From contig NZ_CP099397.1 of assembly GCF_021495345.1 (NCBI RefSeq), positions 2,914,001 through 2,978,000 on the forward strand: a stretch of DNA of 64,000 bases, given 5' to 3'. The notes beneath the pieces are model-generated. The model ran no database searches. It had not been told where the DNA came from and worked only from the letters and a program-made list of their open reading frames with translations. This stretch comes from Pseudomonas hydrolytica (GTDB lineage: Bacteria > Pseudomonadota > Gammaproteobacteria > Pseudomonadales > Pseudomonadaceae). The translations under genes and the position numbers were made by a program. Positions 8,887 to 18,116 of this stretch are shown piece by piece (the first letter of the stretch is position 1; the number at the start of each line of letters is the position of its first letter).

Positions 8887-10032
<1,146 letters not shown>

Positions 10033-10042
10033 ATCGCCACGC

Positions 10043-10095
10043 GTAGGGTGCGCCGTGCGCACCGAAACGCTGGCGGTGCGCGCGGCGCACCCTAC
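10043..10095. repeat. REP doublet between lipA and lif
   Basis: Two inverted GTAG-plus-hairpin arms separated by about 11 bases, starting 10 bases after the lipA stop. Both 7-base stems are intact. The left loop is CGT and the right loop is GCG. Confidence 0.85.
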
Positions 10096-10105
10096 AGCCC
10101 CGCTT

Positions 10106-10129
10106 CGGATCGGGAGCAATCCCGATCCG
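10106..10129. other. Perfect hairpin with GCAA tetraloop upstream of lif
   Basis: CGGATCGGGA pairs over ten bases with TCCCGATCCG around a GCAA (GNRA) loop, directly after the REP doublet and 20 bases before the lif GTG. No T-tract follows, so it is unlikely to terminate. It could stabilise the upstream lipA message or affect lif translation. Confidence 0.7.
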
Positions 10130-10149
10130 ACGCTTTATTGGAACCTGCC

Positions 10150-11169
10150 GTGAACAAAGCCCTGTTTGCCCTGCCTCTGCTGTTCGCCGTCTGCCTGGCG
10201 CTGATGCTCTACCTCGAGCCCGGGCATCTGCCTGATCGCTTCAGCCCTGCTGCCGAGACCACCGCCGTATCGCCAACATCGATCGACCAGGGCGCTGCGT
10301 CGGCAGTCCCCACCCCCGAGAAAGCGAGCAGGAAGCTTGCGCTGCCCAGTTCCTTCGCCGGCACCCAGGTCGATGGCAGCTTTCGCGTCGACGCCGACGG
10401 CAATCTGATCGTCAGCGAGGACATTCGCCGCATCTTCGACTACTTCCTCGCCAGCATCGGCGAGGAAAGCCTGCAGGCCAGCATCGGGCGTCTGCGTGGC
10501 TATATCGACAGCCAGCTGGCCGAGCCAGCACGCGCCCGCGCGCAGGCCCTGCTCGATCAGTACCTGGCCTACAAACGCGAGCTGGTGCTGCTGGAGCGCG
10601 ACCTGCCGCAGCTGGCCAGCCTGGATGCCCTGCGCCAGCGTGAAGCCACGGTACAGGCCCTGCGCGCACGGCTGTTCGACAGCGAAACCCACCAGGCCTT
10701 CTTCGCTCGCGAGGAAGGCTACAACCGCTTCACCCTGGAGCGCCTGGCCATCCAGCATGACGCCAGGCTGAGCGACGACGAAAAAGGCCTGGCCGTGGAC
10801 CGTCTGCGCGCCTCGCTGCCGGAGGAGATGCAGGACATGGTCCTGCCGCAGCTGCAGCAGGAGCTGCGCCAGCACACCGCGCGGCTGCAGGCACAAGGCG
10901 CCAGTGCGGCGCAGATCCGCCAGCTGCGTCAGCAACTGGTGGGCGCAGAAGCCACCACGCGGTTGGAAGCGCTGGATCAGCAGCGACAGAGCTGGCAGAA
11001 AAGGCTGGATGACTATCTCGCCGCCAAGGCAGACATCGAGGCCAACACGGGCCTCAGCAGCGGCGACAAACGCGCCGCCATCGAGGCGCTGGCCGCCGAG
11101 CGCTTCGACGAGCGCGAGCGTCTGCGCCTGGATGCGGCCGAGCAACTGGCCGCCACCAACCGTCAGTAG
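10150..11169 (+). CDS. lif: Lipase-specific foldase Lif (LipH/LimA)
   Basis: A membrane-anchored periplasmic steric chaperone of 339 residues that folds LipA. An N-terminal transmembrane anchor (about 3-22, [17 protein letters not shown]) is followed by an Ala/Pro-rich linker. A long helical domain comes next, with the family motif region [13 protein letters not shown] (about residues 95-107) and many charged helices. The GTG at 10150 has GGAA seven bases upstream. It gives a length close to the roughly 340 residues of the P. aeruginosa protein. It converges on gntR with only four bases between the stops. Confidence 0.94.
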
Positions 11170-11173
11170 CGTT

Positions 11174-12193
11174 TCAGGCGCTGTCGCGCATCACCAGCTC
11201 GAAGCCGACATCGATGCAGTGCTGCTCCGGCGTCTCGCCGCGCATCAGTGCCAGCAGCATGTTCGCCGCCAGCTCGCCGATGCGTCCGCGCGTGGTACGC
11301 ACCGTGCTCAGCGCCGGATGCATCCAGGCCGCCGCAGGCAGGTCGTTGAAACCGGCGATGGCCAGCCGCCCCGGCACCTCGAGGCCCAGCTGACGGGCGC
11401 GGAACAGCGCGCCCATGGCCAGGTCGTCGTTGTTGAAGAACACCGCATCGATCTGCGGCTGCTGCGCCAGCAGGCGGTCGAGCAGCTCAGCGCCCAGGCC
11501 GATGGACGACAGCTCGGGAGTGAGCAGCTCCAGCGCCGGATCGTGGCGACCCAGGTAACGCATCACCTGGCGATAGCCTTCGGCGCGCTGCAGGGTGCGC
11601 GGGTCGAGCTGGGCAGCGGCAAAGGCGATGTGGCGATAGCCGCGCTGCACCAGGGCGCGGGTCATGGCGGCACCCGCCTCGACCTGGGAGAAACCGACGC
11701 AGTAGTCCTCGGGTTCGTCGCTCAGCTCCATCAGCGTCACCAGCGGACAGGTGCTGGCGCCGAGAATCTCGCGCGCCGCGTCGCTGCGCTCGAAGCCGGT
11801 GACCAGCAGACCCGCCGGCTGGTGCGCCAGGTAGGAGCGCAGCAGGCGCTCGTCTTCCTCGACCCGGTAATGGCTGACGCCGATCATCATTTCGAAGCCG
11901 GCCGGCATCAGCACCCGCTGGATGGCCTCGACGGTGTCGACGAACACCGAGTTGGACAGCGAGGGAATCACCACCGCCACCAGGTTCGAGCGCGAACTGG
12001 CCAGCGCCCGCGCCGCCGGATTGGGCACGTAGCCGAGCGCCTGGGCGGCGCGCATCACCTGCTCGCGCAGGGCGTCGGAGACCCTGCCCGGCTGCGACAG
12101 CGCGCGCGAGGCGGACATCAGCGAGCAGCCGGCAGCCTTGGCCACATCCGACAGGGTGACGCGTTCGGCGGAACGGCGACGACGTTGACTCAT
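11174..12193 (-). CDS. gntR: LacI-family repressor of gluconate genes (GntR)
   Basis: A 339-residue LacI-type regulator. The N-terminal helix-turn-helix with hinge (about 11-65) reads VTLSDVAKAAGCSLMSASRAL and YVPNPAARALAS. The periplasmic-binding-protein-like effector domain follows from VAVVIPSLSN. The effector is probably gluconate or 6-phosphogluconate, judging from gluconokinase and TRAP genes upstream on the same strand. A terminator lies between dctP and this gene, so it may have its own weak promoter. Two identical TAGCGCTA-centred palindromes near the gluconokinase gene are candidate targets. Confidence 0.9.
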   Translation of the reverse strand: MSQRRRRSAERVTLSDVAKAAGCSLMSASRALSQPGRVSDALREQVMRAAQALGYVPNPAARALASSRSNLVAVVIPSLSNSVFVDTVEAIQRVLMPAGFEMMIGVSHYRVEEDERLLRSYLAHQPAGLLVTGFERSDAAREILGASTCPLVTLMELSDEPEDYCVGFSQVEAGAAMTRALVQRGYRHIAFAAAQLDPRTLQRAEGYRQVMRYLGRHDPALELLTPELSSIGLGAELLDRLLAQQPQIDAVFFNNDDLAMGALFRARQLGLEVPGRLAIAGFNDLPAAAWMHPALSTVRTTRGRIGELAANMLLALMRGETPEQHCIDVGFELVMRDSA

Positions 12194-12316: not shown

Positions 12317-13330
12317 TTAAAGGGCGGCCTTCTCAGCCTCGGCCTGCACCTGATCGAACAGCTGCTGGCCGACCGTGTCGACCACCTTCTGGATCGCCGG
12401 CGCGGCCTGCTCGCGCATGCGCTGCACTTCGGCGGGGTCCACCTCGTTGATCTGCATGCCCTTGTCCTTCAGCTCGGCCAGCGCGCGGGCGGCTTCCTCG
12501 CGGGTGTCCTGGCGCTCGAAGTCACGCGCCTTCTTCGCGGCCTCCATGAGAATGTTCTGCTCGGTCTGCGACAGGCCGTCCCACCAGCGCTTGGACACGG
12601 TGACGATCCACGGGCTGTACACGTGGTTGGTCACGGTCAGGTACTTCTGCACCTCGTAGAACTTCGAGGAAAGGATGGTGTTGAACGGGTTCTCCTGACC
12701 GTCCACGGCCTTGGTCTCCAGCGCGGTGAACAGCTCGGAGAACGGCAGCGGCACGGCGTTGGCGCCCATCAGCTTGAAGGTGTCGAGAAACACCGGGTTG
12801 GGCATCACGCGCAGCTTGACCCCGGAGAAGTCCTCCAGCCTGGTGATCGGCCGGGTGTTGTTGGTCAGGTTGCGGAAACCGTTCTCCCAGTACACCAGGC
12901 CGACCAGGCCCTTCTCCTCCAGCTTGTCCATCACCTGGCGGCCGACCGGGCCGTCGAGCACGGCGTCGGCCTGTTCGGCGCTGCTGAACAGGAAAGGCGT
13001 ATCCCACACCGCCATTTCCTTGGTGATGCCGACCAGCGTCGCGGTGGAGCCGACCATCATTTCCTGGGCACCGCCGATCAGCGCGCTCTGCATCTGGTCG
13101 TCCGACCCCAGGCTGGCAGCGCCGAAGGTGCGCACCTTGAGTTTGCCGTCAGAGGCCTTGGCCACCTCCTCGGCGAACAGCTTGGCCGCGCGGCCCTGGT
13201 TGCTGTTCTCGTTAAGGCCGTAGCCGAAGCGGATCATCCGCGAACGGACTTCGTCGGCGTGAACGCTGACGGCGGCGAGTGGGCTGCACAGCATGGCAGC
13301 GGTGAGGATGGCGAGCAGCGGACGTTTCAT
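12317..13330 (-). CDS. TRAP transporter solute-binding protein (DctP family)
   Basis: The periplasmic receptor of a TRAP transporter, 337 residues. A signal peptide (1-25, ending VHA) is followed by the DctP fold. It has the helix-rich GQENPFNTI region and an arginine (KLRVMPNP, near residue 174) in the place that binds the substrate carboxylate in this family. With gluconokinase and GntR in the cluster the substrate is most likely D-gluconate, an inference from context. It is the last gene of the gntK-dctQ, dctM, dctP operon. Confidence 0.92.
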   Translation of the reverse strand: MKRPLLAILTAAMLCSPLAAVSVHADEVRSRMIRFGYGLNENSNQGRAAKLFAEEVAKASDGKLKVRTFGAASLGSDDQMQSALIGGAQEMMVGSTATLVGITKEMAVWDTPFLFSSAEQADAVLDGPVGRQVMDKLEEKGLVGLVYWENGFRNLTNNTRPITRLEDFSGVKLRVMPNPVFLDTFKLMGANAVPLPFSELFTALETKAVDGQENPFNTILSSKFYEVQKYLTVTNHVYSPWIVTVSKRWWDGLSQTEQNILMEAAKKARDFERQDTREEAARALAELKDKGMQINEVDPAEVQRMREQAAPAIQKVVDTVGQQLFDQVQAEAEKAAL

Positions 13331-13387: not shown

Positions 13388-14665
13388 TCAGCGCAACCAG
13401 GCCAGCGGCACGGTAACGATGGACGGAAACGCTATCAGCAGGACGACGATGCCCAGGTAGATCAGGAAGAACGGCATCACCCCGCGCACCAGGACCTCCA
13501 TGCGCAGCTTGCCGATACCGCCGACCACGTTGAGCACGGTGCCCACCGGCGGCGTGATCAGGCCGATGGAGCCGATCAGCACGAACATCACGCCGAAGTA
13601 CACCGGGTCGACCCCGGCCTTGATGGCGATCGGCGCCAGCACCGGGGCGAGGATCAGGATGGTCGGGGTCAGGTCCAGCACCATGCCCACCGCGATCATC
13701 AGCAGCATGATCGCCAGCACCAGCAGGCGCGGGTGCTCGGCCAGCGGCCCGAGCATGGAGCCGATCTCGTCCGGCAGCTGGGCCAGGGTGATCATGTAGG
13801 CCGACACCGTTGCCGCGGCGCAGAGGAACATCACCGAGGCGGTGGTGCGGCTGGCGCGGGTCAGGGTCTCGATCAGGTCCGTCCAGCTCAGCTCGCGGTA
13901 TAACAGGGTCGACACCGCCAGGGCATAGACCGCGGCGACCACGGCCGCCTCGGTCGGGGTGAAGATGCCGAAGCGCAGGCCGCCGACGATGATCACCGGC
14001 AGCATCAGCGCCGCCACGCCATCGACCAGTACCCGGCGACGCTCGGCGGCGCTGGCCTTGGGCGGCGTCGGCTCGGTGAAGCCGCGGGCGATCAGGGTCC
14101 AGGCGACGATCAGCCCGGCACCCATGATCAGCCCCGGCACCAGACCGGCCATGAACAGCTGGCTGATCGAGGTATTGGTGACCACGCCATAGATCACGAA
14201 GGGCATCGACGGCGGGATGATCGGCGCGATGATGCCGCCAGCGGCCACCAGGCCGGCCGAGGAATGCAGCGGATAGCCGCGCTGACGCATCATCGGCAGC
14301 AACAGGGTGGCCAGCGCCGCGGTGTCGGCCAGCGCCGAGCCGGACATGCTCGCCAGCAACACCGCGGCGGCAATGGCGACGTAACCGAGGCCGCCGCGTA
14401 GATGGCCGAAATAGGCCTGGGCCATAGCGATGATGCGCCGCGAGATGCCGCCGGCGTTCATCAGCTCGCCGGCGAGGATGAAGAAAGGCACGGCCAGCAG
14501 CGGGAAGCTGTCGGCGCCGGCGAGCAGGTTCTGCGCCAGCAGCTGCACGTCCCAGAAATCCAGGTACCACATCAGCACGGCGGCGGTGAGGATCAGGGCG
14601 AAGGCGATGGGCATGCCGAAGGCCATGAACCCCAGCAGGGATGTAAGGAAGACGGCGACGGTCAT
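13388..14665 (-). CDS. TRAP transporter large permease (DctM family)
   Basis: The 425-residue membrane subunit that couples sodium to solute uptake. About 12 hydrophobic segments run through the protein, with the family features PFFILAGELMNAGG near residue 60, GGIIAPIIPPSMPF near 150, and GLITPPVGTVLNVVGG near 370. The ATG at 14665 has GAGGA six bases upstream. It lies 49 bases after the fused gluconokinase-DctQ ORF and 57 bases before dctP on the same strand. Confidence 0.95.
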   Translation of the reverse strand: MTVAVFLTSLLGFMAFGMPIAFALILTAAVLMWYLDFWDVQLLAQNLLAGADSFPLLAVPFFILAGELMNAGGISRRIIAMAQAYFGHLRGGLGYVAIAAAVLLASMSGSALADTAALATLLLPMMRQRGYPLHSSAGLVAAGGIIAPIIPPSMPFVIYGVVTNTSISQLFMAGLVPGLIMGAGLIVAWTLIARGFTEPTPPKASAAERRRVLVDGVAALMLPVIIVGGLRFGIFTPTEAAVVAAVYALAVSTLLYRELSWTDLIETLTRASRTTASVMFLCAAATVSAYMITLAQLPDEIGSMLGPLAEHPRLLVLAIMLLMIAVGMVLDLTPTILILAPVLAPIAIKAGVDPVYFGVMFVLIGSIGLITPPVGTVLNVVGGIGKLRMEVLVRGVMPFFLIYLGIVVLLIAFPSIVTVPLAWLR

Positions 14666-14714: not shown

Positions 14715-15836
14715 TCATTCGACCTGCGCCTGCGTCAGCCTTGCCTGCGGCGCGTGCCGCCAGAGATTGACCAGCTGCACCACCGCGAGAATCGCCAGCA
14801 CCGCCATGCTCGCCAGCACCGGCAGCATGGCCAGCACCACGGGATAGCCGACCACCGTGCTGTGGTTGCCCCAGCCGTACTGCACCTGCATCCACGCGCC
14901 CCAGGCCGACAGCAGGCTGGCGCCGGCCACCAGCAGCCAGCTCAGCGAATCCACTAGGCGCTGCGCCAGTTGCGGAAAGCGGTCGCGGATCATGCGGAAG
15001 GTCATCAGCTCGCCGCGGCGCATGCTCGAGGCCACGCCGACGAACACCAGCCAGACGAAGGCCAGCCGCGACAGCTCCTCGGCGCCCGGCCAGCCGGTGC
15101 CAAAGGCGTAGCGCAGCACCACGTTGGCAAACACTGCCACCACCATGAATGCCATCAGAACGGCCATCAGGCCGTCGGTGAGGCGATCGAACAGGCGCGC
15201 CAGGCGCCCTTCGTAAATCGGCTCGGCGCCCAGTTGCGGCCCCTGGTTAGCGCTATCAATTTCGGGCATGGCAGCAACGTCCTCCTCCACCGAAACAGCC
15301 TCCGGCAGATCGCGACACAGCCAGGCACGGATCTGCTCCAGCAGCGACTCGCGGCTGTCGGCCGCATTCAGCACGCAGACATGCGGCTCGCCGGCCGGCG
15401 TTTCGAGGGTGGCGAACTGGCTGTCGACCAGTGAGGTGGGCATGAAGTGTCCGGGGCGCGCGCCGACCCGCTGCAGCGCGGTGGCATGGTCGATCTGCAG
15501 ATGGACGAACTGCAGCCCTGGCACCGCCGCGCGCAGACGCTCACGGTAGACGCGCTTGAGCGCCGAGCAGGCCAGCACGAAGCCCTCGCCCGCCGCCTGT
15601 GCAGCGAGCATCTGCTCGCACAGGGCGTCCAGCCAGTGGCTGCGGTCATCGTCGCTCAGGGGAATGCCGGCGCGCATGCGCTCGACGTTTGCAGGAGGAT
15701 GGAAGTGGTCGGCTTCGATATGGCGCCAGCCGAGGGTGGCGGCCACCGCCTGGCTGATTTCGCTCTTGCCGGAGCCGCTGACGCCCATGACCACCAGGGT
15801 GGCGCGGGCAGGCAGGGTGAAAGGCTGTTGCTGCAT
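14715..15836 (-). CDS. Gluconokinase fused to TRAP small permease (GntK-DctQ)
   Basis: One open frame of 373 codons encodes two normally separate proteins. Residues 12-175 are a complete gluconokinase: Walker A GVSGSGKS (18-25), EADHFHPPANVERM, LSDDDRSHWL, CSALKRVYR and RPGHFMPTSLVDSQF. Residues 190-373 are a complete TRAP small subunit with four hydrophobic helices (FANVVLRYAF and GAEELSRLAFVW are typical). The linker VEEDVAAMPE contains an in-frame ATG at 15269 preceded by GGAGGAGG (15281-15288), 11 bases away, so separate DctQ could also be made. A one-base shift late in gntK would instead end it at tandem TGA-TAG (15258-15253). The fusion could therefore be a real join or a frameshift, biological or technical. 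The main start at 15836 has TGGAG. Confidence 0.9.
   Translation of the reverse strand: MQQQPFTLPARATLVVMGVSGSGKSEISQAVAATLGWRHIEADHFHPPANVERMRAGIPLSDDDRSHWLDALCEQMLAAQAAGEGFVLACSALKRVYRERLRAAVPGLQFVHLQIDHATALQRVGARPGHFMPTSLVDSQFATLETPAGEPHVCVLNAADSRESLLEQIRAWLCRDLPEAVSVEEDVAAMPEIDSANQGPQLGAEPIYEGRLARLFDRLTDGLMAVLMAFMVVAVFANVVLRYAFGTGWPGAEELSRLAFVWLVFVGVASSMRRGELMTFRMIRDRFPQLAQRLVDSLSWLLVAGASLLSAWGAWMQVQYGWGNHSTVVGYPVVLAMLPVLASMAVLAILAVVQLVNLWRHAPQARLTQAQVE
15246..15257. promoter_or_regulatory. Second candidate GntR operator, inside gntK-dctQ
   Basis: GTTAGCGCTATC is identical over 12 bases to the site upstream of the gene. Here it lies just inside the dctQ portion, 10 bases after the internal ATG. 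LacI-family operators are palindromes centred on CG, which this matches (TAGCGCTA). It may act as an auxiliary operator for looping. Confidence 0.5.
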
Positions 15837-15887: not shown

Positions 15888-15899
15888 GTTAGCGCTATC
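15888..15899. promoter_or_regulatory. Candidate GntR operator upstream of gntK-dctQ
   Basis: GTTAGCGCTATC, flanked by GGAT and CCA, forms a near-palindrome 52 bases before the gluconokinase start, in the 195-base gap shared with the divergent TonB receptor gene. The position suits a repressor site over the promoter. A TAGCGCT core agrees with what I recall for Pseudomonas GntR. Confidence 0.6.
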
Positions 15900-16031
15900 C
15901 AAATCGTTCGACAACCCCGCACCGGCAACATTTGGTAGAGCATTTCCCGCATCTGCCATGGTCAAGTGCTGGTCCGTAACCAATGGACAAGGTCAAGATC
16001 GCCTGCCTGCACCCAAGGAGATGTTTCGCTT

Positions 16032-18116
16032 ATGCATCGGCCGAGCCCCCGCGTCTGGCTGCCCGCCCTGCTGCTACCGCTGGCCGCGCAGGCCGAGAAC
16101 GCCAGCTATCAGGCCGAGCCGCTGGTGGTTACTGGCAGCCGCTATCAGGCAAGCGGCTGGCGCCTGCCCTTTTCGGTCAACCGCATCGATGCCGAGCAGG
16201 CCACTCTGGGCAAGCCGGGGGTCAATCTGTCCGAGGCGCTCGGCAGCGTGCCCGGCCTGGTGGTGCAGAACCGGCAGAACTACGCGCAGGATCTGCAGGT
16301 GTCCTCGCGTGGCTTCGGCGCCCGCTCGGCCTTCGGCATTCGCGGTATCAAGCTGCTGGCCGATGGCGTGCCGCTGTCCAACCCCGACGGCCAGGGCCAG
16401 GCGGCGACCTTCGATCTGGACAGCCTGGAGCGCATCGAGGTGCTGCGCGGCCCCTTCGCCAGCGTCTACGGCAGCAACTCCGGCGGGGTGATCCAGCTGT
16501 TCTCGCGCGATGGCGAGGGCGCGCCGAGGGTGTCGCTCGACACCTCGCAGGCGGCTTTCGGCACCAGCCGCACCCGTGTGGCGGCTGAAGGCGGCAATGA
16601 CCAGGCGGGCTTTATCCTCAACCGCTCGCACTTCGAGACCGACGGCTATCGCGACCACAGCGGCGCCATCCTCGACAAGACCTTCGCCAAGCTCACCCTG
16701 TATCCGGACGATGCCAGCAAGCTCAGCCTGAGCTTCAGCCAGCTCGACCAGAACGACACCCAGGACCCGCAGGGCCTGACCTGGCAGCAGGTGCAGGACG
16801 ACCGCCGCGCCGCCGCCCCCAGCGCTGTGGCGTTCGATACGCGCAAGACGGTCGATCACCAGCAGCTGGCCCTCAACTACGAGCGCAGCTTCGCCGCCGG
16901 CACCTGGCAGAGCACGGTCTACAGCGGCACACGGCGGGTGATTCAGTACCAGTCGATCCCGGTGGCGGTGCAGGCCAACCCGTCCCATTCCGGCGGGGTG
17001 ATCGATTTCGAGCGGCGCTTCCATGGCATCGGCAACCGCTGGATCCAGCCCTTCGACCTGGGCGCCAGCCTGCTGACCCTGACCGCCGGCCTGGATTACG
17101 ACCAGTCGCGCGACGACCGCCAGGGCTACGAGAACTTCGTCGGCAGCACCCTGGGCGTGAAAGGCAATCTGCGCCGTGACGAGCGCAACGAAGTCAGCAG
17201 CCTGTCACCCTACCTGCAGGCTGCCTGGCAGTTGGGCAAGCTCGACCTGCAGGCCGGCCTGCGCCATAACCAGGTGAAGTTCGAGGTGGACGACCGCTTC
17301 CTGAGCAATGGCGACGACAGCGGCTCGGTCACCTACCGCGAGCTGACCCCGACCCTGGGCGCCAGCTACGCGCTGCTGCCCGAGCTGAACCTCTACGCGA
17401 GTTGGGGCAAGGGCCTGGAGACACCGACGCTCAACGAGCTGTCCTACTCGGGCGCCGGCGGCGGTTTCGGCTTCGACCTGCAACCAGCCACCAGCAAACA
17501 GCTGGAAATCGGCCTCAAGGCCCGTCTGGCCGAGGCCACCAGCCTGCAGCTAGCGCTGTTTCAGATCGATACCGACGACGAGCTGGTGGTGGCATCCGCC
17601 AGCGGCGGCCGCACGCGCTTTCAGAACGCCGCACAGACCCGCCGCCGCGGCGTGGAGCTGGCAATGGAAAGTCAGCTCAGCGAAACCCTGCGCGCCACCC
17701 TCGCCTACACCCGCATCGACGCCGCCTACAGCCAGGACTTCACCAGCGGCGGTCGGCTGATCGAGGCGGGCAATCGCCTGCCCGGCATCCCCGCCAGCAC
17801 CCTGTATGGCGAACTGGCCTGGCAGCCGCGCGAGGGCTTCAGCACCGCCCTCGAAGGGCTGTACCGCAGCAAGCTGTATGTCGAGGACAGCAACGCCGAC
17901 AAGGCCGCGCCCAGTTACGCCCTGTTCAACTGGCAGGCGCGCTTCGAGCAAACGCTCGGTGCCCTGACCTTCAATCAGGTGCTACGCATCGACAACCTGC
18001 TGGACCGCGAATACATCGGCTCGGTGATAGTCGGCGAGAGCAACGGCCGCTATTACGAGCCGGGGCCGGAGCGCGCCTGGTATATCGGCGCGGGGGTGCA
18101 GTACCGGTTCGATTGA
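16032..18116 (+). CDS. pqqU: TonB-dependent receptor resembling PQQ importer PqqU/YncD
   Basis: An outer-membrane active transporter of 694 residues. A signal peptide (about 1-23) is followed by a TonB box region (PLVVTGSR), the plug domain (about 45-160) and a 22-strand barrel ending in an aromatic/acidic residue pair (YRFD). Many blocks match my memory of E. coli YncD, recently shown to import PQQ: QNRQNYAQDLQ, NPDGQGQ, DTRKTV, ETPTLNELSY, and VGESNGRYYEP near the end. AAGGAG precedes the ATG at 16032. It is divergent from the gluconate operon. PQQ links the two, since PQQ-glucose dehydrogenase makes periplasmic gluconate. The substrate is inferred from similarity. Confidence 0.88.
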   Translation: MHRPSPRVWLPALLLPLAAQAENASYQAEPLVVTGSRYQASGWRLPFSVNRIDAEQATLGKPGVNLSEALGSVPGLVVQNRQNYAQDLQVSSRGFGARSAFGIRGIKLLADGVPLSNPDGQGQAATFDLDSLERIEVLRGPFASVYGSNSGGVIQLFSRDGEGAPRVSLDTSQAAFGTSRTRVAAEGGNDQAGFILNRSHFETDGYRDHSGAILDKTFAKLTLYPDDASKLSLSFSQLDQNDTQDPQGLTWQQVQDDRRAAAPSAVAFDTRKTVDHQQLALNYERSFAAGTWQSTVYSGTRRVIQYQSIPVAVQANPSHSGGVIDFERRFHGIGNRWIQPFDLGASLLTLTAGLDYDQSRDDRQGYENFVGSTLGVKGNLRRDERNEVSSLSPYLQAAWQLGKLDLQAGLRHNQVKFEVDDRFLSNGDDSGSVTYRELTPTLGASYALLPELNLYASWGKGLETPTLNELSYSGAGGGFGFDLQPATSKQLEIGLKARLAEATSLQLALFQIDTDDELVVASASGGRTRFQNAAQTRRRGVELAMESQLSETLRATLAYTRIDAAYSQDFTSGGRLIEAGNRLPGIPASTLYGELAWQPREGFSTALEGLYRSKLYVEDSNADKAAPSYALFNWQARFEQTLGALTFNQVLRIDNLLDREYIGSVIVGESNGRYYEPGPERAWYIGAGVQYRFD

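Follow-up and report, generated by a model that had tools for sequence, protein, structure and literature searches.

A gluconokinase-DctQ fusion gene of Pseudomonas and Stutzerimonas with a probable GntR operator in its linker

Gluconokinases of the GntK/IdnK type (TIGR01313; E. coli-type, PDB 1knq) consist of one complete domain with a P-loop. DctQ small permeases of TRAP transporters (PF04290; YiaM- and SiaQ-like) have four predicted transmembrane (TM) helices and are encoded beside dctM and dctP. TRAP transporters draw on a sodium gradient and require no phosphorylation. The known TRAP fusion joins the two permeases (TIGR02123). Regulators of the LacI family can use intragenic auxiliary operators, such as lac O2 in lacZ and gal OI in galE.

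The gene described here lies in a stretch of 64,000 nucleotides from Pseudomonas hydrolytica (the window, Table 1). It encodes the same complete kinase domain and the same four predicted helices, and it adjoins dctM and dctP. It differs from GntK/IdnK-type gluconokinases in that the C-terminus continues into a membrane protein, and from DctQ in that the N-terminus bears an enzyme. It is also distinct from the known TRAP fusion; the dctM product here reaches just 88 of 321 bits with TIGR02123. As in the lac and gal systems, a second putative repressor site is found within the first gene of the controlled operon. In contrast to lac O2 and gal OI, this site falls in the linker that joins the halves of a fusion protein, and its origin is probably intergenic.

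Table 1. Positions of the fusion gene, its parts, the operator-like sites and the neighbouring genes in the window.
Feature	Position	Strand	Evidence or remark
gntK-dctQ fusion gene, 373 aa from ATG	14715..15836	-	open in one frame in 67/67 full-length relatives
Gluconokinase domain, residues 14-172	15321..15797	-	TIGR01313 181.8 bits, cut-off 113.75
Linker, residues 175-209	15210..15314	-	alignments; pLDDT < 50 over 177-209
DctQ small-permease domain, residues 211-360	14757..15206	-	PF04290; four predicted TM helices; hydropathy, positive-inside pattern
Intragenic operator-like site GATAGCGCTAAC	15246..15257	-	read in frame as Asp194-Ser195-Ala196-Asn197; kept in 63/67 loci
Upstream operator-like site GATAGCGCTAAC	15888..15899	-	52-63 bases before the fusion start codon
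dctM, TRAP large permease	13388..14665	-	PF06808 401.2 bits, TIGR00786 444.2 bits
dctP, TRAP solute-binding protein	12317..13330	-	PF03480 318.4 bits, TIGR00787 286.2 bits
gntR, LacI-family regulator	11174..12193	-	NF052440 (HTH-type transcriptional regulator GntR) 486.6 bits, cut-off 400

The reading frame and the Walker A motif GVSGSGKS at residues 18-25 were confirmed as given in the preliminary description. Its main claim, that GntK and DctQ are joined in frame, also holds, as both TIGR01313 and PF04290 score above their cut-offs and all 67 full-length relatives examined have a single frame. The TIGR01313 match covers positions 1-161 of the 164 of the profile, that is, the full domain. The PF04290 match (86.3 bits against a cut-off of 28.3) covers residues 231-360. 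In all 14 aligned fusion members, both the DctQ and the P-loop (AAA_33) models were matched, and across 17 aligned fusions the P-loop residues 18-25 are invariant except for S22 and S25. The solved relatives of the kinase half by sequence are the gluconate kinases 4eun, 3t61, and 1knq. Those of the DctQ half are TRAP permease proteins, with low scores (22-36 bits). By profile, the kinase half is a GntK/IdnK-type gluconokinase, and ATP-dependent phosphorylation of gluconate is predicted. This gene is the sole match to the kinase part in its own genome at E <= 1e-3. The other matches there cover the DctQ part alone, and thus the fusion is the only gluconokinase match of the genome.

The AlphaFold model, built from 14 sequences and of moderate confidence (mean pLDDT 66.4, pTM 0.46), shows an alpha/beta domain at residues ~10-175, a low-confidence linker, and four long helices at 211-245, 251-273, 290-323, and 330-360. 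In the alignments both the sequence and the length of the linker vary; the exceptions are the operator-like site, whose codons are kept, and a PIY motif that precedes TM1. Five Lys/Arg residues of DctQ are in loop 2, between helices 2 and 3, and none are in loops 1 and 3. This positive-inside pattern, together with hydropathy, puts both ends of DctQ in the cytoplasm, and the kinase is therefore predicted to be cytoplasmic. The flexible linker would tether it to the N-terminus of DctQ.

A search for other proteins carrying both domains, as proposed in the preliminary description, was productive. A scan of genome contigs with peptide patterns taken from both halves of the fusion found 46 fusion loci in Pseudomonas and Stutzerimonas records, matched over nearly the whole length. 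The search of 298 genomes of the genus added at least 21 full-length matches, own genome included, which were chosen because they matched in full. All 67 loci, encoding 60 distinct proteins, have one open frame each. The remaining matches listed in the genus search are kinase-only, with about 49-67% identity. Judged by the matches listed, the fusion is thus a minority state in the genus. In the family search (248 genomes), 61 genomes had matches at E <= 1e-60, a limit which favours full-length matches and is out of reach for kinase-only ones, and 60 of them are fused. Fifty-six show one spanning match, and four, with long linkers, show two pieces in one open frame. Genome G517, which still passed the limit, is the single split case, with the two halves in different frames. 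Its frame change (locus L109, at about 4223; Stutzerimonas-rich group g15) is just past the linker site, and dctQ may start at a TTG that overlaps the stop codon of the kinase. It may be a natural split or an assembly error. Many species of Pseudomonas and Stutzerimonas thus carry the gntK-dctQ fusion.

Searches were also made at the level of the order (390 genomes, E <= 1e-40), class (369 genomes, E <= 1e-45), and phylum (398 genomes, E <= 1e-42), with overlapping genome draws, and none of the matches listed is a fusion outside Pseudomonadaceae. Because these searches scored 4-5 candidates per genome, distant or independent fusions were possibly missed. The best near-miss outside the family is genome G1419, where gntK and dctQ are in one frame, separated by TAA and 18 bases, and are followed by dctM. 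A near-identity DNA search of plasmids gave no match. Some kinase-only matches in the phylum search, including those in G1447, G1300, G1297, G1313, and G1370, are located in long open frames of 463-605 codons from stop to stop.

The order of the fusion, dctM, and dctP is the same in 46/46 named loci, and gntR follows dctP in 44 of them. In the two others, L075 (P. luteola) and L078 (P. asuensis), gntR was not found beside dctP. These two loci are also without the linker site; L063 and L076 are without the site and keep gntR. The regulator scores as Pseudomonas GntR with the equivalog model NF052440. Since the fusion shares its operon with dctM, dctP, and a regulator of the GntR type, a gluconate TRAP system is likely. 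The same assignment is suggested by the kinase fused to the permease and by the operator-like sites. Genome-wide fitness work on a Stutzerimonas strain reportedly assigned a TRAP system to gluconate. The words "TRAP" and "gluconokinase" do not occur in the main text of PMC9007349. Divergent from the fusion is an ORF at 15966-18116 (+), which by eye is TonB-dependent receptor-like, and a relative of it is found beside the fusion in 16/46 named loci. A lipase-like ORF with a GHSHGG motif is located at 8992-11169 (+), and the ORF after it probably encodes a lipase chaperone (both by eye).

The same 12 bases, GATAGCGCTAAC, are present in both the linker and the non-coding DNA upstream of the fusion. 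In the own genome of 5,291,095 bases, GNTAGCGCTANC occurs at these two places only, and the reversed pattern, used as a control, occurs three times. In the window, ATAGCGCTAAC with up to one mismatch has two matches with 0.33 expected, and 3/100 shuffles reach two. When up to two mismatches are allowed, the operator-like pattern is about as frequent in the window as chance predicts (36 matches vs 33.2 expected). The linker site is present in 63/67 loci, as GATAGCGCTAAC in 59, GATAGCGCTACC in two, GTTAGCGCTAAC in one, and GGTAGCGCTAAC in one. It is absent while the fusion is kept in L063, L075, L076, and L078, and in the further locus L092. TAGCGCT is found near the fusion start in 67/67 loci; in L070, L071, and L080 it is inside a 5' extension that the script took as the start. 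Both exact sites occur in 60/67 loci, at a spacing of 630-664 bp with no preferred helical phase.

The palindromic core TAGCGCTA is kept near gntK in several lineages and was not found in L147. The published GntR consensus of Pseudomonas aeruginosa is said to end in TAGCGCT. It is this consensus and the placement of TAGCGCTA at gntK operons in several groups that suggest a GntR operator. The GATAGCGCTAAC of the linker is thus a probable GntR operator inside coding sequence. In the preliminary description, the letters TGA-TAG at 15258-15253 were taken as the latent end of gntK, reached by a one-base slip. The letters are there, but they cover the start of the conserved operator-like site, which the preliminary description overlooked.

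Operons with the same genes in the same order, gntK and dctQ being separate neighbours, are found in Comamonas, Azospirillum, and Rhizobium (L144-L147, lacI-gntK-dctQ-dctM-dctP) and in G1419 (L155, gntK-dctQ-dctM). In L144-L147 the regulator is upstream and divergent. By tblastn of plasmid records, gntK and dctQ are 15 bases apart in Comamonas endophytica and overlap by 4 bases in Azospirillum oryzae, and the operon with separate gntK and dctQ is also present in A. ramasamyi and Rhizobium sp. 007. In contrast to the fusion, none of the five two-gene loci read has TAGCGCTA between gntK and dctQ. Upstream of gntK, TAGCGCTA is present in four of the five, L147 being the exception. In L144-L146 and L155, TAGCGCTA occurs twice upstream of gntK, at a distance of 87-119 bp, and paired sites may thus be general at the targets of the regulator.

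A different arrangement is seen in the unfused pseudomonads and the g9 genomes. There, an operator-like site follows the gntK stop, 16-26 bases past the stop where the site is exact. Exact TAGCGCTA was found after gntK in 14 of the best 19 unfused family loci (the best-scoring L026-L034 and L114-L123, of which L118 is the same place as L034). The exceptions are L115 and L120 with TAGCGCTG, L114 with CAGCGCTA, and L026 and L123 with none. In L027 the gene after the site is GntP-like, its 62-residue start matching TIGR00791. GntP-like starts follow the site also in L114, L115, L117, and L119-L121 (by eye). Counted from the Walker codon, the exact sites are at +514 to +518 in the unfused loci and at +512 to +539 in the fused loci, where 48/63 are at +530. 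The linker sites of the fused loci share one reading phase, whereas the unfused sites vary. The gntK-gntP locus differs from the fusion in that its permease is GntP-like and its site is intergenic. As the site between gntK and the GntP permease is at nearly the same distance, the linker is probably a captured intergenic operator. The ancestral overlap of two genes considered in the preliminary description is right in part. The loci seen outside Pseudomonadaceae have two separate neighbouring genes, and in the unfused pseudomonads the place of the linker is taken by intergenic DNA with the operator-like site, followed by a GntP permease gene.

In the kinase tree, built without L147 and L109 and rooted at the midpoint, 33 fused rows are on one side of a branch and 23 unfused rows on the other, with support of 94/92, just under the strict mark. 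The fused or unfused state changes once on the tree, while the shuffled mean is 18.0. The unfused kinase of genome G185 adjoins the fused clade (99/95). The unfused pseudomonads form a weakly supported group (94/79) that also takes in Comamonas L144 and G999, and the fused clade is not nested among them, which weakens the proposed origin. The G185 kinase (L150, 5302-5844) is beside putA-like and LysR-like genes (by eye). In the 11 kb read there, no operator-like site and no evident TRAP genes were found, and the DctQ matches elsewhere are weak. No unfused pseudomonad intermediate with gntK, the site, and dctQ was seen among the matches listed in the genus search or in the family search. In the genus search, a second match at E <= 1e-20 was listed for G208 alone, and the protein matched there is a different kinase. 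In the family search five genomes have two matches, namely the four fusions with long linkers and the split G517.

The origin is most simply read as a single fusion event, in which the gntK stop was lost after a TRAP set had replaced GntP behind a site-bearing gntK. In the ancestor, as in the unfused pseudomonads of today, a GntR operator and then a GntP-type permease would have followed gntK. The TRAP set would have taken the place of the permease, and loss of the gntK stop codon would then have made the intergenic operator part of the coding sequence. The fused kinase may also have descended separately or been transferred.

Taken together, these observations make it fairly likely that gntK-dctQ, dctM, dctP, and gntR form a gluconate uptake operon controlled by GntR, in which kinase and DctQ are made as one chain, a captured operator is kept in the linker, and GntR acts at both sites. 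GntR would bind the upstream site and the linker site, about 640 bp apart. Without gluconate or its metabolite, GntR bound upstream would block initiation, and GntR bound at the linker would repress by looping or by blocking elongation. Either function of the inner site would have a parallel in lac O2 and gal OI. The observed spacings are spread over the helical turn, and strict phasing is thus unsupported. When the inducer is present, the whole operon would be made, with the ratio of kinase to DctQ fixed because both are on one chain. It is possible, and proposed here more tentatively, that the fusion captured a working intergenic operator, that the 12 bp have served as both repressor site and protein linker in two genera, with repression of transport tied to transcription through the kinase half, and that a gluconokinase placed at the TRAP permease couples import and phosphorylation in space and in dose.

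A related possibility, compatible with the operon model just given, is channelling, as suggested in the preliminary description, or vectorial phosphorylation. The fusion would then have been selected because the kinase, placed at the membrane, can capture gluconate on import. The two steps are consecutive and on one chain, the positive-inside pattern places the kinase on the cytoplasmic side, and the fusion is retained across Pseudomonas and Stutzerimonas. Against this, TRAP transport does not depend on phosphorylation, and the linker varies, being up to 29 alignment columns longer in other fusions, and is modelled with low confidence. Such a linker implies proximity, but no fixed interface between kinase and permease. 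Channelling as the reason for the fusion is doubtful.

Somewhat less probable is that the linker site governs an internal promoter, from which dctQ, dctM, dctP, and gntR could be transcribed, and that DctQ could be translated separately from the kinase, beginning at a start codon within the gene. The unfused pseudomonads do have a like site just before the permease gene. The internal ATG with a Shine-Dalgarno (SD)-like stretch pointed out in the preliminary description is also present; it is in frame at 15268, with a purine-rich stretch upstream, and precedes the linker site. Its proposed role as a start for DctQ is not borne out by conservation. At +516 from the Walker codon, an ATG preceded by an SD is found in the own genome alone of 42 representatives, the nearest being at +522 in L078, and a conserved internal ATG start was rejected. 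An ATG with SD of at least 4 nt in the linker stretch occurs in 9/42 representatives, at varying places and in five at the very end of the kinase. If GTG and TTG are allowed in the scanned stretch, in-frame starts with such an SD are found in 25/42, again at varying places. The position of the linker site downstream of the ATG here also argues against an internal promoter. The flanks of the linker site are not conserved beyond about 14 bp in the 38 site-bearing representatives, so that no conserved promoter elements are seen.

In the operon model with a captured operator, the linker site would be kept as DNA. It is very improbable that Asp-Ser-Ala-Asn is kept for the protein, for example as a cleavage or modification motif, with the operator resemblance incidental. 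The four residues are indeed conserved within an otherwise variable linker, but their codons are constant as well. Among the carriers of the consensus residue in 42 representatives of the 67 loci (less than 95% identical to each other), the codons are AGC in 37/37, GCT in 37/37, AAC in 35/35, and GAT in 39/40. GCT is a rare codon that makes up 11% of the Ala codons overall in these genes. The Asp-Ser-Ala and Ser-Ala-Asn windows rank first and second of 75 in excess codon identity. In the comparison of 25 Pseudomonas with 12 Stutzerimonas-group representatives, the mean codon identity over 189 degenerate columns is 0.551, and identity is complete (1.0) in six columns, four of which are the adjacent codons of the linker site. 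GCT is the commonest codon in only one of 26 Ala columns, that of the linker site. This comparison uses 37 of the 42, with L066 and L077 (titled Pseudomonas sp.) assigned to the Stutzerimonas group by sequence; L063, L067, L075, L076, and L078 were left out, and since four of these five lack the site, it measures constancy among carriers. By a third-base count on the protein alignment of the 42, codon 194 alone is invariant among the four, because L067 is shifted by one codon there in the MAFFT alignment. The counts conditioned on the residue do not depend on the L067 row. As related sequences are treated as separate in the codon counts, no formal probability is given.

The residue replacements also speak against a protein motif. 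Val or Gly replaces Asp at the first site codon and Thr replaces Asn at the fourth, and G-N-TAGCGCTA-N-C is always retained. These changes affect positions at which the DNA motif allows any base. All 38 representatives with the site also share T at -3 and G at -2 of the core. In addition, the identical 12 bases are present in non-coding DNA upstream. As with lac O2, the site lies within coding sequence and is kept at the DNA level beyond the need of the protein. It is thus selection on DNA that we infer to keep the linker site. The weakest alternative, raised in the preliminary description, is a sequencing error or recent frameshift that joined two separate genes; the split halves of G517, in different frames right after the linker site, would fit it, but it is rejected as practically negligible because 67/67 full-length relatives have a single frame and all but one of the 61 family genomes matched at E <= 1e-60 are fused.

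If the operon model is true, the fusion would be a clear case in which stop-codon loss made protein out of an intergenic regulatory sequence without ending its regulatory function. The natural set of fused and unfused genes, with and without the linker site, is suited to tests of the value of an enzyme-transporter fusion and of the duty of an intragenic operator.
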